Virus record (IMG/VR): IMGVR_UViG_3300020214_000126 | Location: 1-23,607 of that record | DNA from: a virus | Direction: 5' to 3' (one strand) | DNA length: 23,607 nucleotides | Shown: piece after piece, positions 6,085 to 18,434 of the stretch | Numbering within the stretch: the stretch's first letter is position 1 | Layout: every line of letters starts with the position of its first letter | Notes under the pieces: model-generated | The model's input: only the letters and a program-made list of their open reading frames with translations | Told to the model about the DNA's origin: nothing | Database searches by the model: none | Made by a program: the position numbers and the translations under genes

Positions 6085-6393
6085 TCAGGATCCGTAGAGG
6101 GCAGCGACGGCCCCCGCCGCGAGTGACAGGGCAAGGGAGTTTATGAGCATAATGTAAACTCTCTCCCGGAAGGTCCGGGCATCGAGGAAGATCATCGAGA
6201 TCGAGAAGTTGATGATGGGCAGGAAGAAGCCGATGAGCATCACCGTCGCGAGCATCCTGTGGGCCGTCGCGTAGGCGAACATGCAGCCGAGGACGTTCGT
6301 CAGGAGCCCGAGGAGGAACATCACCTGGAGCCGGAGCCGGAGCTTGTCCTCACCGCGGAGGCGCTCCTGCATCTTCTCGAGGAACTCAATCAC
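6085..6393 (-). CDS. Three-helix membrane protein
   Basis: 102 aa. After a charged N-terminus (MIEFLEKMQERLRGEDK) there are three hydrophobic segments at about residues 21-42, 46-68 and 79-101. The family is not recognised. A holin-like role would fit its size and topology, but it sits in a repair-type operon rather than beside a lysin, so this stays open. The ATG overlaps the UvdE stop by 4 nt. Confidence 0.65.
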   Translation of the reverse strand: MIEFLEKMQERLRGEDKLRLRLQVMFLLGLLTNVLGCMFAYATAHRMLATVMLIGFFLPIINFSISMIFLDARTFRERVYIMLINSLALSLAAGAVAALYGS

Positions 6394-7418
6394 ACGGCCC
6401 TCCGACGGGCGGCCCGCTTCTCGGCTGTCACCGCCGCCTTCTTCTCCTTCTGCTTCCGGGTGACGGCGGCGATCTCCTCATCGGTCGTGCCCCGCCGCTC
6501 GTCGTAGAAGGAGGACTGGTCGACCCCGGTGACGAGCTGGATGACGGCGAGTTCCTTCGCCTTCGCCTCGACGAGGCAGTCGATCTCGAGACCGTGCGGA
6601 TCGACCGGGCCATCGACGAAGTTCGAGTGGGCGGTGGGGCTGACGGTCCGACCCTCACGCTCGCGGGCGGATTCGGAGTAGTGCGTGCAGGGCCGGACCC
6701 CAGCGGGCCAGGTGCTCGCCGCGAGGTGGAGGGCATCACGCTCGCTCAACCCGCCATCACAGAACTTGTGGTGGTGATAGTCGAAGACGACCGGGGTCCC
6801 GGTCCGCTGCCAGACCTTGTGGAGATCGACGACCGAGTAGCACTTCGCCTTGTCATCGTTCTCGACCGTGAGCCGACGTTTGACATTCTCGGGGACCCGC
6901 TCGAAGTTGCGGCACCAGCGATCCATCGACCCCTCCTTCTCACCGAAGGCACCGCCGAGGTGGATGTTGATCTTCGCCTCGGGCGTGTTCGGCAGGCCGA
7001 TGGCGTCCATGATCTCGCCGTGGATCCGGAGGTCGCGGATGCAGTTCTGGACAACATGCTCGCGGGGGGACGTCAGGCAGTTGAACTGGCCCGGATGGAA
7101 GCTGAGACGCTGGCCACCCGCCCGGGCTGTCCGACCGACGAGCTCCAGGCCGGCCCGGATCGCGGGCCAGTCAGGCAGCTGCTCGAACTCGTATTCGGAG
7201 GCCCACGGGGCCAGGTCGGAGGTCATCCGATACACTTGAATCCCATGGGTGTTGTTCCACTCCACAATCCCATGAAGTGTCTCCACATTCTCCAGGGTGA
7301 GGCGGGATGCATGCTGGATACCCTTTTCCTGAAAGGTCCGCTTGATCATCGATCGGAACCCGCCCTTCTTCGAACCAAGGGTCATGTTGAGGCAGGCGTA
7401 ACCGAAGCGGATGGACAT
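6390..7418 (-). CDS. uvsE: UV damage endonuclease (UvdE/UvsE family)
   Basis: 342 aa. A TIM-barrel UV-dimer endonuclease that nicks DNA 5' of photolesions. Visible signatures: RFGYACLN at 4-11, FHPGQFN at 107-113, INIHLGG with H153, TVEND with E186, and VVFDYHHHKFCDGG with D213 and H215-217, matching the metal-binding His/Glu/Asp set. The C-terminus (about 318-342) is a Lys/Arg/Ala-rich tail. The start has GGAGG 6 nt upstream, and promoter P5 lies upstream of that. It leads an operon with a 3-TM protein and three tiny proteins. It probably protects phage DNA from sunlight. Confidence 0.92.
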   Translation of the reverse strand: MSIRFGYACLNMTLGSKKGGFRSMIKRTFQEKGIQHASRLTLENVETLHGIVEWNNTHGIQVYRMTSDLAPWASEYEFEQLPDWPAIRAGLELVGRTARAGGQRLSFHPGQFNCLTSPREHVVQNCIRDLRIHGEIMDAIGLPNTPEAKINIHLGGAFGEKEGSMDRWCRNFERVPENVKRRLTVENDDKAKCYSVVDLHKVWQRTGTPVVFDYHHHKFCDGGLSERDALHLAASTWPAGVRPCTHYSESAREREGRTVSPTAHSNFVDGPVDPHGLEIDCLVEAKAKELAVIQLVTGVDQSSFYDERRGTTDEEIAAVTRKQKEKKAAVTAEKRAARRRAV

Positions 7419-7800: not shown

Positions 7801-7831
7801 GTAATAATTATAGCGTGCACGGGAGATTTTA

Positions 7832-12467: not shown

Positions 12468-12827
12468 CTATCTCCTTTTGTTTTTACGAGGTCCATTGGG
12501 GGCCGCCTCGTGAATTAATACTAGCTTAAGTTCGCAGGTTTTGCAGATTAATTCGAACTTTTTTTTGTCGGTCACCAGCTCGAGCTTTCTGGATCGTGAA
12601 AGCGCCTTCACGGTCCGCTCGGTTCTCAGGGCACATGAGAGGCAGCAGGCTGGGTGACTGACCAGAAGACGAACAGGCCGTCGGGAGCGTGTGTATTTTG
12701 CCCCTCGACGGCCTGAATTGTGTTCGTTGATCCTTCGCTCAACGTCTGTCGTGATACCGCAGTAGAGCGTACCATCGGCGCACTCGACCAGGTAGATGTG
12801 GTAGAGTCTACTCGTCAATGTACTCAA
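12468..12827 (-). CDS. GIY-YIG endonuclease-like protein
   Basis: 119 aa. The GIY-YIG core is clear: YHIYLVECADGTLYCGITTD at 9-28, with YCG replacing YIG, then the catalytic-Arg helix 'DVERRINEHN' and 'AKYTRSRRPVRLL', with a Glu in RTERTVKAL. It resembles the short single-domain UPF0213/YhbQ-type group. A Cys-containing tail 'FELICKTCELKL' follows, perhaps with other Cys residues binding zinc. The only suitable starts are TTG codons at 12827 or 12818; the gene overlaps the GapR-like gene by 20 nt and is probably coupled. It could be a homing or repair nuclease. Confidence 0.75.
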   Translation of the reverse strand: MSTLTSRLYHIYLVECADGTLYCGITTDVERRINEHNSGRRGAKYTRSRRPVRLLVSHPACCLSCALRTERTVKALSRSRKLELVTDKKKFELICKTCELKLVLIHEAAPNGPRKNKRR

Positions 12828-13283: not shown

Positions 13284-13447
13284 CACTGAAAGTCCTCATC
13301 ATCAGGTTCCTCGAGCTCTGCTTCACAACTCTGGTAGGCATGAGCTTTCACCGTCATGCTTGAACCCAGGGCTGTCATGATATCGTCGATCATCTCAGTG
13401 AGATCCTCGATCTCTTTAGCTGCGAACTTTAGAAGAGCGTTTCCCAT
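13283..13447 (-). CDS. 54-aa acidic helical protein
   Basis: Chosen start ATG 13447 gives MGNALLKFAAKEIEDLTEMI and an acidic end EEPDDEDFQ. The frame is open farther upstream to 13552, but that part lies within the 102-aa gene and reads poorly. It still overlaps that gene by 32 nt, with only a weak ribosome site. Coiled-coil or adaptor function is possible; no family recognised. Confidence 0.5.
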   Translation of the reverse strand: MGNALLKFAAKEIEDLTEMIDDIMTALGSSMTVKAHAYQSCEAELEEPDDEDFQ

Positions 13448-13724
13448 CGAAACGCTCGCTAACCACGTCTCCTTCGCCAGCCACGCTCTGTGTGGTAACT
13501 TGATCGCTCCCTTCGGAGGGGACGACAGCTGGCGCATCCGCGATCTTTTCAATCTTCTTTGATTTCATTTCTGGAAACATCGACGACAGCTGAGCTTCGT
13601 CTGGCGCTTCCAGCCTAAGTTTCTTCAGGAGATTGATGAAATCAGCGCGATCCTTCACGCCCCTAACTGCAAGCCATTGCTTGACATCGATGTTTCGACG
13701 CAATACGTAATTGTTCCAATTCAT
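13416..13724 (-). CDS. 102-aa hypothetical protein
   Basis: 102 aa. The N-terminal half is an alpha-helical module (YVLRRNIDVKQWLAVRGVKD, 'FINLLKKLRLEAPDE', 'LSSMFPEM') that looks like a compact DNA- or protein-binding fold. The C-terminal third is Ser/Val/Gly-rich and probably disordered. AGGA sits 9 nt before the ATG, which overlaps the upstream stop (ATGA). No family named with confidence. Confidence 0.6.
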   Translation of the reverse strand: MNWNNYVLRRNIDVKQWLAVRGVKDRADFINLLKKLRLEAPDEAQLSSMFPEMKSKKIEKIADAPAVVPSEGSDQVTTQSVAGEGDVVSERFDGKRSSKVRS

Positions 13725-13957
13725 TCTTCAATTGTCCTCATTTCTCTGCGAATGTTTTGGTCGAGGACCATAAAAATGAGCCTCGCACCCTCATCCGTGG
13801 TGCGACCACGGAGATGCTTAGCAAGCTCTCTTTCGATCGATCCCTTGTCGCTGAGCTTGCATCCATTGAGAAAATTAGCAGCCCGCTCGTAGAGCGATTG
13901 CAGCTGCTCCTCATCCCAATCGTGAATTTCAAGTAACCTGGTCTCCAGATCTATCAT
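13721..13957 (-). CDS. 78-aa helical hypothetical protein
   Basis: 78 aa, almost entirely helical (MIDLETRLLEIHDWDEEQLQ, 'RAANFLNGCKLSDKGSIERE', 'IRREMRTIEE'). No recognised family. ATGA overlaps join it to both the sigma 4.2-like gene upstream and the 102-aa gene downstream, making it part of the sigma operon. A role as a sigma accessory or anti-sigma protein is conceivable but rests only on position. Confidence 0.6.
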   Translation of the reverse strand: MIDLETRLLEIHDWDEEQLQSLYERAANFLNGCKLSDKGSIERELAKHLRGRTTDEGARLIFMVLDQNIRREMRTIEE

Positions 13958-14253
13958 GCTGCCTCAGTGTAAATATCCCCCAACATCGAAGCCATCGATT
14001 CCTGAAAGCGTGGATCAAGGGAAACACGTTTTGACTCTGCGTCAAGCAGCTCGGGAGAGATGCCCTGAAGGATGCAGAGCTCACGCGCGATCTTCTCGAG
14101 GGCTCGCAGGACGAGATTTCGAGCAGTCGAGATCGAGATCTCATCACCGTCAGCGGCCATTCGCTCCGCAATCGCACGATACTCCAGGCCGCCGAAATCC
14201 GAGCTCACGGTGGCGTAACCGTTCTTAAATTTTGAACCGTTGGGCATGCTCAT
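13954..14253 (-). CDS. Separate sigma-region-4.2-like helix-turn-helix protein
   Basis: 99 aa. Residues 22-58 (GLEYRAIAERMAADGDEISI then STARNLVLRALEKIAREL) align by eye with sigma-70 region 4.2, where 'LEEIGxxfgVTRERIRQIE' leads to 'AKALRKLR'. The family's Arg-rich recognition helix is changed to STARNLVLR, implying altered -35 contact. The C-terminal 40 residues are unassigned. Its ATG overlaps the stop of the sigma gene (TGATG) with AGGAG inside that gene's end. It may complete a two-polypeptide sigma factor, or it may be an independent HTH regulator. Confidence 0.55.
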   Translation of the reverse strand: MSMPNGSKFKNGYATVSSDFGGLEYRAIAERMAADGDEISISTARNLVLRALEKIARELCILQGISPELLDAESKRVSLDPRFQESMASMLGDIYTEAA

Positions 14254-15035
14254 CAGGACTCCTGGGCGGCATCAAGGGCCGCGAGTTCGGACTTGGTGAT
14301 TGGAAAGTTGACATGATCGGTGGGACTCTCGACGAGAGCGAAGCGAAGACGAAGGATCTTCTCCTCGCGTGCCGTAAGCTTCTTCAGACCGCGACGGATC
14401 GCTAGCGCGATCTTATCGCGGTCGATGCTCTCATCGATCTCATCGGCCCCGGCTCCCGGGATCAGATCTCCCAGTCTCGGTGCGTCGGGATCATCTCCCA
14501 GCGCGCCGGGCGCGTCGAGGCTCAGGGTATACTTGGAAGTCTGCAGCAGGACATCGAGAGAGCTGATCCCGACGCCCAGGATATCAGCAAGCTCCTCGAC
14601 GGAGGGTTGAACCCCAAACTCACGCTGGTATTCCTCTGCCGCCCGGCGGGCGCGCCACACAAGGTTATTCGCCCCCGCCGGAAGACGGATGGAAGAGGAC
14701 TGGAGCGTGATATGCCGCATGACCGACTGACGGATCCACCAGGTCGCGTAGGTCGAGAACTTGAAGCCACGCCGCCAGTCGAAACGATCCACCGCCTTCA
14801 TGAGACCAAGGGTGCTCTCCTGGATCAGATCCTCGAAATCGCAGCCACGATTCTGATACTTCTTCGCGATCGAGACCGCGAGTCGAATATTCGACTGTAC
14901 CATCCTGTTTCGCGCTGCGGACCGAACCTTCTCGTCCTTGCTCTCCATCTGCTGGGCGAGATTTACCTCACCCTCACGAGTGAGGAGAGCGTGACGACCC
15001 ACCTCCTTGAAGAATGTCTGCATCATGTCAGGCAT
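14253..15035 (-). CDS. Sigma-70-family factor ending after region 4.1
   Basis: 260 aa. Region 1.2: DMMQTFFKEVGRHALLTREG (3-22). Region 2: RNRMVQSNIRLAVSIAKKYQ, 'GCDFEDLIQESTLGLMKAVD', 'FKFSTYATWWIRQSVMRHI' and SIRLPAG (42-121), which provides core binding, melting and -10 recognition. Region 3: EEYQREFGVQPSVEELADIL. Region 4.1: LKKLTAREEKILRLRFAL (217-234). After that the usual region 4.2 HTH is missing; the chain ends 26 residues later (ELAALDAAQES). The next gene supplies a 4.2-like HTH. It probably redirects host RNA polymerase to phage promoters. AAAGGAG precedes the ATG. Confidence 0.85.
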   Translation of the reverse strand: MPDMMQTFFKEVGRHALLTREGEVNLAQQMESKDEKVRSAARNRMVQSNIRLAVSIAKKYQNRGCDFEDLIQESTLGLMKAVDRFDWRRGFKFSTYATWWIRQSVMRHITLQSSSIRLPAGANNLVWRARRAAEEYQREFGVQPSVEELADILGVGISSLDVLLQTSKYTLSLDAPGALGDDPDAPRLGDLIPGAGADEIDESIDRDKIALAIRRGLKKLTAREEKILRLRFALVESPTDHVNFPITKSELAALDAAQES

Positions 15036-15770: not shown

Positions 15771-17363
15771 TTACGCAGGAGCGTCATCGACGATAGTGCA
15801 GCCCACGGAGAGTAACATACTTGCGGCGGAATGCGCATTTTCCAGCGCCGATCGAACGACCTTCAGGGGATCGACGATGCCTGCCTCAATCGTGTCCACG
15901 TAGCGTTCGGTCGCAGCATCGTAGCCTGTGCTATCACGTAGACGTTCGACCTTCGAGAGGATAAGCTCGGGATTGCGACCTGCGTTTGAGACGATCTGCC
16001 GGAGCGGTGAGCAGCAGGCCTGCAAGATCACCTCGGTGCCCTGCTTGAACGAATCGCTCCGGTTTCTCAGGGCACGACGACGGACGCGAGCTGAGGCTCG
16101 CACAAGCGCGGTACCGCCACCCGGAAGAATACCCTCTTCCACCGCCGCCTTCGTTGCGTGGAGGGCATCATCGACACGATCGCGCCGCTCCTTCAGCTCA
16201 GGCTCTGTTGCTCCACCGACACGCAGGATAGCCACACCGCCCGCGAGGCGGGCCAAGCGCCGGCGGAGCGCATCATGCTCGTGGGTATCGAGACCTGGAT
16301 CCTCGATCTGTGACCTGATCTCAGCAGCTCGGGCGGTGATATCCTCCTTCCTACCAGCAGCATCGATGAGAACGCTGCGATGACGACCCACGATGGCACG
16401 CTTGCAGCGTCCCAGCTCCTGGAGGTTCACCCTCGCGAGGTCCGACTCACCGATCACAACCCGTGTTCCGAGGAGGATGGCAAGATCCTGCAGGGCATGG
16501 AGACGATTCTCACCAAATTCCGGACCCTTGATCGCGCTCACCTGCAGGATACCCTTCGTCCTGTTGACCACGAGACCCTGCATCGCCTCGCCCTCAATAT
16601 CATCAGCGACGATCAGGATGGGTTTCTGCGCCGCGTGTATCTTCTCAAGAAGCGGCATGAGTTCCTTCAGCGTCGTGATCCGGCTGTTGGTGAGCAGGAC
16701 GTAGGGTGACTCGAGGGATGAGACCATCTTCTCGCTGTCCGTCACGAAGTAGGGCGAGAGGTAACCACGATCGAGCTCGGCTCCCTCAACGACATGGAGG
16801 CTTGTGCTGAACCCCTTCGCCTCCTCGACCGTGATCGTTCCATCACGACCGACAGCACGCATTGCCTGGGCCAGAAGTTCACCGATCTCCCGCTCGCCGT
16901 TCGCCGAGATCGTGCCAACCTGGACGACCTCCTCATCAGATGAGACGGGCTTCGCCATCGCGCGGAGCTCCTCGATCACCGAGGCAACCGCCCACGACAT
17001 GCCGGCCCGAACCTCTGGGCTGCTGTGATCGCCCGAGAGGACACGAAGTCCACCGTTGAAGATAGCGTGCGTGAGGACTGTCGCGGTGGTGGTTCCATCA
17101 CCTGCAGCATCGCAGGTGCGGTTCGCAGCTTCCTTGACGATCTGCGCCCCGAGGTTCATGTTACGATCCCTGAAATCGATAGCCCGGGCAACGCTTACCC
17201 CGTCCTTCGTGACGATGGGAGGCGCTCCCGGTACCTCGATTATCACGTTCTGACCTGAGGGACCCATCGTGACCCTAACTGCTTGAGCGAGCGAATCGAC
17301 ACCCTTACGTAAGCTCTCGCGTGCCTCATCATCGAAGATGAGAGCCTTGAAACCCTCGGTCAT
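15771..17363 (-). CDS. groEL: GroEL-type chaperonin (Hsp60)
   Basis: 530 aa, close to the usual 540-548. Equatorial ATP-site motifs: DGTTTAT at 89-95, PGGGTAL at 414-420, and RVDDALHAT at 396-404, which includes the catalytic Asp. Apical substrate/co-chaperonin surface: RGYLSPYF at 199-206. It should form a folding ring for phage or host proteins. The Gly-Gly-Met tail typical of bacterial GroEL is absent; it ends 'VGCTIVDDAPA'. It follows the 70-aa gene by 4 nt, where groES would normally be. Some jumbo phages carry GroEL, but this one looks unusually bacterial-like by eye. Confidence 0.95.
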   Translation of the reverse strand: MTEGFKALIFDDEARESLRKGVDSLAQAVRVTMGPSGQNVIIEVPGAPPIVTKDGVSVARAIDFRDRNMNLGAQIVKEAANRTCDAAGDGTTTATVLTHAIFNGGLRVLSGDHSSPEVRAGMSWAVASVIEELRAMAKPVSSDEEVVQVGTISANGEREIGELLAQAMRAVGRDGTITVEEAKGFSTSLHVVEGAELDRGYLSPYFVTDSEKMVSSLESPYVLLTNSRITTLKELMPLLEKIHAAQKPILIVADDIEGEAMQGLVVNRTKGILQVSAIKGPEFGENRLHALQDLAILLGTRVVIGESDLARVNLQELGRCKRAIVGRHRSVLIDAAGRKEDITARAAEIRSQIEDPGLDTHEHDALRRRLARLAGGVAILRVGGATEPELKERRDRVDDALHATKAAVEEGILPGGGTALVRASARVRRRALRNRSDSFKQGTEVILQACCSPLRQIVSNAGRNPELILSKVERLRDSTGYDAATERYVDTIEAGIVDPLKVVRSALENAHSAASMLLSVGCTIVDDAPA

Positions 17364-17603: not shown

Positions 17604-18434
17604 TCACGCCGCCTGGAACGGAAACTGAATCCACAGACGATCGAACGATGCGATCCACTTCGGCCATGCCTTGTCGCTTGTTAGTGACACGATGTCTATA
17701 CCCTGCATCCGGGAACGAAGCTCATCGTTCTGCCGCGCGGGGGCGCTGAGGATCACCTGATCCCAGGTCGTCGTCAGGTCTTCGAAGCCGATCATGCCCA
17801 GGTTGTGCTCGAAGATCGGGCGGGCCTCTGGCTTCTTGATGAAGAAAGCCTCGAGCGCTCCCTCCTCCGTCACCAGTGCCGCCGCCCGCTTGTCACCGAT
17901 GCCAGGGATGCCCGGGATGTTATCGGCGCCGTCCCCACGGAGCGCCTTCCATCGAACGTAGTCGTAGGTGGGAGCCTCAACGAAGACGTCCTTGATAGGT
18001 GAGTAGAGGGCGATCCGGTGATCATTCGTCCGGAGGAGCTGGATGAAGTCGGTATCCGTCGACACGATCGTTACCCGATCATCGACGTGGTGTCTCTGGG
18101 CGAGATGCGCGATGACATCATCAGCCTCGTAGTCCGGGTGCCGGGCCACGACGATCGGCAGGTGACGTGAGATGATGTCTGTCACCTGCCGCTTCTGGTT
18201 CCGGAAGCTGTCATCCATCCCGGTACGTTGTGCCTTGTAGGTACCTCCGGAGGCCTCGATGCGTCGACGCGGGACACCCTCCATCACAAAGTAAGCGACA
18301 TCTGGCTTAAAGCGATCGATGAGTGAGCGGACCGAACGGAGAGCTGCGAACGTGCAGCCGTGCTCGGCGCCTTGCATCGCCACCCGGGCACGATGGATGA
18401 GGTTGAGACCATCGATGATAAGAACATGACGCAT
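17604..18434 (-). CDS. 5'-3' exonuclease / flap endonuclease (FEN family)
   Basis: 276 aa. Motifs of the Pol I N-terminal-domain/T4 RNase H family: LIIDGLNLIHRAR (5-17, D8), YEADDVIA (102-109, E103, D105, D106), IVSTDTDFIQLL (123-134, D127, D129), and the helix-hairpin-helix GDGADNIPGIPGIGDKRAAA (167-186, D168, D171). It probably removes RNA primers or flaps during phage replication. The start overlaps the upstream stop as TGATG. No polymerase domain is fused. Confidence 0.93.
   Translation of the reverse strand: MRHVLIIDGLNLIHRARVAMQGAEHGCTFAALRSVRSLIDRFKPDVAYFVMEGVPRRRIEASGGTYKAQRTGMDDSFRNQKRQVTDIISRHLPIVVARHPDYEADDVIAHLAQRHHVDDRVTIVSTDTDFIQLLRTNDHRIALYSPIKDVFVEAPTYDYVRWKALRGDGADNIPGIPGIGDKRAAALVTEEGALEAFFIKKPEARPIFEHNLGMIGFEDLTTTWDQVILSAPARQNDELRSRMQGIDIVSLTSDKAWPKWIASFDRLWIQFPFQAA

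Follow-up and report, generated by a model that had tools for sequence, protein, structure and literature searches.

A viral sigma-70 factor cut inside region 4 and its separately encoded partner: a candidate two-subunit sigma

The window analysed here is the whole 23,607-nucleotide stretch of IMG/VR virus record IMGVR_UViG_3300020214_000126. Its minus strand carries two overlapping genes, a sigma-70 family factor and, directly after it, a small protein that we call the partner (Table 1). The sigma stop codon TGA (14255-14253) has its A in common with the ATG of the partner, and a Shine-Dalgarno (SD) sequence for the partner lies within the sigma gene; the junction, CCCAGGAGTCCTGATGAGC, reads CCC AGGAG TCC TGATG. 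An earlier note made from the letters alone had described a sigma split into two coupled genes with this TGATG overlap and AGGAG, and both the two ORFs and the overlap are real.

Table 1. Features of the sigma-partner cluster (positions are those of the window)
Feature	Position	Strand	Basis
Truncated sigma-70 family factor, 260 aa, regions 1.2-4.1	14253..15035	-	83 distinct relatives including the window
Sigma region 1.2, aa 3-35	14931..15029	-	Pfam PF00140, E 1.8e-8
Sigma region 2, aa 45-110, -10 recognition and core binding	14706..14903	-	Pfam PF04542, E 1.8e-21
Sigma region 3, aa 129-182	14490..14651	-	Pfam PF04539, E 3.3e-6
Region 4.1 helix LTAREEKILRLRFA, aa 217-235, last recognisable sigma segment	14331..14387	-	Pfam PF04545, positions 2-18 of 50
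Short C-terminal tail, aa 236-260, without HTH; D..nFPIT..E motif also in many relatives	14256..14330	-	
AGGAG Shine-Dalgarno of the partner, within the sigma gene, 5 nt upstream of the ATG	14259..14263	-	Sequence; SD in 47/47 relatives
99-aa partner, region-4.2-like; start overlaps sigma stop (TGATG)	13954..14253	-	
HTH-like helices of the partner, aa 25-34 and 41-62	14068..14181	-	AlphaFold2, mean pLDDT per 10-residue block 84-97
Third cluster gene, 78 aa (LETRLLEIHDWDEEQL), overlaps the partner's stop; similar gene at the same place in many relatives	13721..13957	-	
Fourth cluster gene, 102 aa (MNWNNYVLRRNIDVKQWL); many relatives have a similar gene shortly after the pair	13416..13724	-	

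The sigma chain is clearly of the RpoD type as far as it goes: its regions 1.2, 2 and 3 all score above the Pfam cut-offs. Region 4 is incomplete, since the Pfam model is matched only over its start and the chain stops some 25 aa later. A complete region 4.2 elsewhere in the 260-aa chain was ruled out, none being found by Pfam, as the earlier note had supposed. Among 27 split sigmas the helix 4.1 segment (aa 217-233) has a mean identity of 0.76, with 8 of its 17 columns at 90% or above; the corresponding means are 0.80 for region 2 and 0.46 for region 3. Helix 4.1 is thus conserved about like region 2 despite the end of the chain soon after it, which argues for a partner, since a stump without one should decay.

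Does the split recur? Relatives were collected in IMG/VR by a search with the partner and, independently, by a search with the sigma. Starting from the partner, a truncated sigma was found directly upstream at 59 of 59 loci. Starting from the sigma, with the partner not used, the partner was nearby in 57/57 loci with a truncated sigma and in 0/23 loci with a complete one. In all, 83 distinct truncated sigmas on viral contigs (the window's included) have a separate partner gene, which is adjacent in 71 and separated in 12. That the truncated sigma and its partner gene go together beyond chance is therefore confirmed: both recur in every relative found. In a tree of 94 sigmas, 83 of them the distinct split ones including that of the window, the split may have arisen once. 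Each contig searched has exactly one region-2 sigma (24/24) and exactly one partner (29/29), counts to be read with the possible incompleteness of IMG/VR records in mind. Other proteins with a full region 4 occur in a few of these genomes only and are not common to the group. The earlier note had suggested that the -35 reader might be exchanged; a single partner copy in each of the 29 contigs gives this no support.

The spacing of the two genes bears on how they are expressed. In 47 distinct pairs the partner starts between -23 and +31 nt from the sigma stop, in all three relative frames, and an SD-like sequence precedes the partner start in every one of the 47, as against 12% at random positions within sigma genes. 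In the 12 lineages where the genes are separated, other sequence, usually another gene, lies between them. No fused sigma-partner ORF, for which the earlier note had recommended looking, was found among the relatives. The three frames, the intervening genes and the lack of a fused form uphold the view that the partner is made by re-initiation and not by fusion. Together with the strict 1:1 pairing they also fit a two-subunit sigma composed of independently translated genes.

In one clade with large genomes (L119, L121, L122, L124, L125, L128, L134, L137, L139 and L147; contigs of up to 369 kb) the gene between sigma and partner encodes a small protein, which in several cases seems to have a membrane segment. 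It is possible that this protein is a membrane link or a regulator of the sigma.

What, then, is the partner? An alignment of 48 partners has a conserved N-terminus (MxMPxGxKxxxGYATV), an HTH-like stretch (GYREIAExMTxxGxKMNHSTARN) and a C-terminal DPRFQ region. The [ST]ARN motif in the HTH-like helices is conserved and among relatives mostly reads NHSTARN. The AlphaFold2 model of the window's partner has helices at residues 25-34, 41-62, 67-78 and 81-95, and residues 1-17 are disordered. With aa 18-55 this protein matches positions 22-54 of the 54 positions in Pfam Sigma70_r4_2 (PF08281), at a sub-threshold E of 0.001. The match in the sigma is to the start of region 4 and that in the partner to the rest, so that the two are complementary halves of one domain. 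The Sigma70_r4_2 model is matched by 4 of the 48 family members (best E 3.5e-4); the HTH half is matched in the window's clade and most members fall below detection. When the sigma chain of one relative (L005) is read through its natural TAA, the partner part scores 27.5 bits for Sigma70_r4_2, the curated cut-off being 25.7. The AlphaFold2 model of this read-through chain (pTM 0.49, junction disordered) matches solved sigmaA and sigmaS structures, and some of the alignments (329-365 columns) may reach into the modelled partner part.

The partner's turn between helices is longer than that of sigma4, and relative to Sigma70_r4_2 the partner adds the conserved N-terminal and C-terminal regions. 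In hhalign the partner family aligned with a sigma4 alignment no better than column-shuffled controls did. The earlier note anticipated a structural resemblance to sigma4; a Foldseek search of the PDB and BFVD with the 99-aa AlphaFold2 model found no sigma4 and no informative match. Beyond the marginal matches, the family found nothing significant in Pfam. We accordingly regard sequence homology between the partner and region 4.2 as marginal, and put modest confidence in the partner's descent from region 4.2. The sole high-probability fold match (prob 0.99, TMt 0.70, but E 0.31) is BFVD A0A6J7X3V2, a 72-aa uncharacterised protein of an uncultured Caudovirales phage. In genome G014 the partner-family profile (positions 20-56) matches region 3 of the genome's own sigma (C1:105684-105800, E 4e-4), a hint at a possible likeness between the HTHs of the partner and of sigma3.

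The two small genes that complete the cluster have recurring features of their own: the third has a TELLEALxWDEE-like motif, and the fourth has a SWxxFxxRRxxxxxxFxxxxxIxTYEE-like start and a proline-rich end. Most relatives have one or both of these genes immediately after the pair, and the window copies have no database match. They may be part of the same transcription module. Elsewhere in the window, inspection revealed a GroEL-like chaperonin gene at 15771-17363 (-), also present in the closest relative G001 (24690-26285). Inspection also points to UV-damage endonuclease-like and GIY-YIG-like ORFs, which together with a 5'-3' exonuclease (phrog_107, E 4.6e-31) lie at 6390-7418, 12468-12827 and 17604-18434 (-). 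In G001, a contractile-tailed phage, the ORF at C1:43705-47373 (-) is by inspection like the alpha subunit of DnaE-type DNA polymerase III and not of the T4 polymerase type.

Sequences upstream of ORFs were surveyed by an unbiased 7-mer count, which placed ATAnTTA words among the most enriched, first or second in most genomes. In all 15 genomes ATAnTTA is overrepresented ahead of genes, with observed/expected ratios of about 4-10 fold (30 observed vs 2.9 expected in G001, 52 vs 7.7 in G010). The sites in G001, the closest large relative, mostly precede genes that look structural on inspection (sheath, tube, tape measure, scaffold). As a control, the same method recovered the known late motif of T4 (TATAAAT/ATAAATA); in Vibrio phage 2.275.O, whose sigma is unsplit, it gave no enrichment. 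T4 also has a milder excess of ATAnTTA (8 vs 2.5 expected), so some of the enrichment may come from upstream sequence being rich in A+T. With its first A taken as -11, ATAnTTA comprises a -10 element (xATAnT) followed by TA.

In the window four ATAnTTA sites lie 19-30 nt before ORF starts, with 0.6-0.7 expected. These candidate promoters are at 7804 (+), 9147 (-), 13976 (-) and 19279 (-), and the one at 13976 sits inside the partner gene, ahead of the third gene of the cluster.

An additional signal lies further upstream. In 433 aligned sites positions -21 and -20 (G), -19 and -18 (A) and -16 to -14 (T) relative to the motif deviate with p-values of 1e-3 to 3e-11; such single-position values are inflated, since intragenic controls also have isolated low p-values that come from codon structure, and we therefore relied on the contiguous peak. 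This peak runs from -25 to -14 from the motif (promoter positions of about -36 to -25), with EM starts at -25 to -22. The EM log-likelihood is 103 at the peak; further upstream it is 2-15, in shuffles -8 +/- 9 and in intragenic controls 48. In the clade of G010, G016, G008, G004 and G014 the upstream element reads AGnnA, with G at 69%. In G024, the most distant genome tested, it is not significant. A first search for the element in 5 genomes looked negative, and it became clear only with 15. TTGACA itself is not enriched (G017 left out). The element at the -35 position is thus weak, clade-dependent and unlike the host consensus, and the -10-like ATAnTTA motif is far stronger than any upstream signal. 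The earlier note took the small protein to be the -35 reader. A weak, reproducible element at the -35 position and predicted HTH-like helices are in keeping with this, whereas the marginal Pfam match, the null hhalign result and the lack of a structural match to sigma4 are not, so that this putative role has partial support.

Split-sigma contigs reach 369 kb, and their carriers form a large group of tailed phages that is apparently uncultured. With the partner as query, tblastn turned up nothing credible in plasmids or among 50,697 cultured phage records, and a search of PHROGs gave no significant match (best marginal E 0.0075). The sigma types named in a review of 224 jumbo phages are just the single-HTH minimal and the RpoD-like ones, along with gp33 (PMC7824862). 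The literature searched gave no description of a split, bipartite or two-subunit phage sigma, or of one cut inside region 4. With its last DNA-reading domain divided between two proteins, the sigma suggests a two-part promoter-reading machine, new relative to the sources searched.

Sigma factors are among the most conserved proteins of transcription. We consider it likely that the pair forms a two-subunit phage sigma, probably a late one, in which the partner completes sigma4 on the beta flap. The three relative frames, the intervening genes, the lack of a fused form and the 1:1 pairing all fit such a sigma. The 260-aa chain would bind host core RNA polymerase via regions 1.2-3 and read ATAnTTA as its -10 element. 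Region 4 would be cut so that 4.1 stays on the sigma chain and the 4.2 HTH comes from the next gene, the two being produced by coupled translation. Helix 4.1 and the partner HTH would then rebuild a sigma4-like module on the beta-flap tip, from which the HTH would touch DNA around -35. Physical assembly, flap binding, use of ATAnTTA promoters by this sigma and the -35 contact of the partner are all steps that we infer. Late timing and the assignment of the ATAnTTA promoters to the split sigma are likewise suggested by genome content. More broadly, we incline to the view that in a widespread viral lineage region 4.2 has become a stand-alone subunit, sigma4 being reassembled from two chains and serving a promoter class of its own (an ATAnTTA -10 with a clade-specific -35-like element).

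If so, the -35/flap module is able to act as a detachable subunit, in phages with genomes of up to hundreds of kilobases. A reader on its own chain would allow its amount or access to be controlled separately. The pair would offer a natural means of asking what region 4.2 contributes and, for viruses known chiefly through metagenomes, it would define a phage-specific class of promoters.

The strongest competing explanation is that the partner, like gp33 of T4, is an obligate coactivator with no true region 4.2, one that would sit on the beta flap where sigma4 otherwise binds, would not read DNA sequence and might couple transcription to replication. In T4 the same two jobs are divided between gp55, which recognises only the -10, and gp33, a separate small protein on the flap that is structurally unrelated to sigma4 and does not read DNA (PMC2988020, PMC7892883). 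The dominance of the -10-like motif over any upstream signal, the marginal homology of the partner to region 4.2 and its conserved extra helices (aa 67-78 and 81-95), which exceed a bare HTH, would all suit a protein of this kind. However, the Pfam gp33 family (PF16805) is absent from 29/29 split-sigma phages, T4 itself being detected as a control at E 6e-28. Furthermore, gp33 goes with promoters that have no -35 element whereas the sites here have a weak one, and the split sigma retains a conserved helix 4.1, for which no counterpart is described in gp55. On balance we consider a gp33-like partner unlikely.

It is more doubtful still that the partner is a separate HTH regulator (an anti-sigma, repressor or activator) lying in the operon of a sigma that works without region 4.2. 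Anti-sigma genes often come after sigma genes, and such a regulator would accord with the loss of adjacency in some lineages and with a predicted fold that has no sigma4 match on its own. Against this, the partner accompanies every truncated sigma and no complete one, always as one per contig, and its Pfam match is to exactly the half that region 4 is missing; a dispensable regulator should have been lost in some lineages. Although a single TAA separates the frames in some relatives, neither a gene that a sequencing error has broken nor one whose halves are joined by a programmed frameshift or by reading through the stop is compatible with the three relative frames, the variable gaps, the genes intervening in 12 lineages, the SD site before the partner in 47 of 47 pairs and the lack of any fused ORF.

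Returning to a two-subunit sigma, how does it compare with known systems? Single-chain phage sigma-70 factors (Vibrio phage 2.275.O, Microcystis phage MaAM05, Synechococcus phage S-B68) have the same architecture of regions 2 and 3, but carry an intact 4.2 HTH in one ORF and have no partner gene. In T4, as proposed here, phage proteins share the work of a sigma between a -10 reader (gp55) and a small protein (gp33), in a large tailed phage with a late-type -10 motif. The differences are that gp55 has only a remote region 2 whereas the large chain here is clearly an RpoD-like sigma, and that the split-sigma phages lack gp33, carry the motif ATAnTTA and not TATAAATA, and have a weak -35-like element. 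The RNA polymerase alpha CTD is absent from the split-sigma phages, and a search of 24 phages for the gp45 sliding clamp (PF02916), run without a positive control, gave no match. In the bacterial SigO-RsoA, two proteins from separate genes jointly serve as a sigma at promoters, and the cut falls between sigma2 and sigma4 (PMC8103513). The phage pair is like it in being two separately encoded proteins, whose putative joint action would fit their strict pairing. It differs in that SigO-RsoA has its sigma2 and sigma4 parts on separate chains, whereas the phage sigma keeps regions 1.2 to 4.1 together. Known two-part sigmas break between domains, whereas the phage sigma is cut within region 4.
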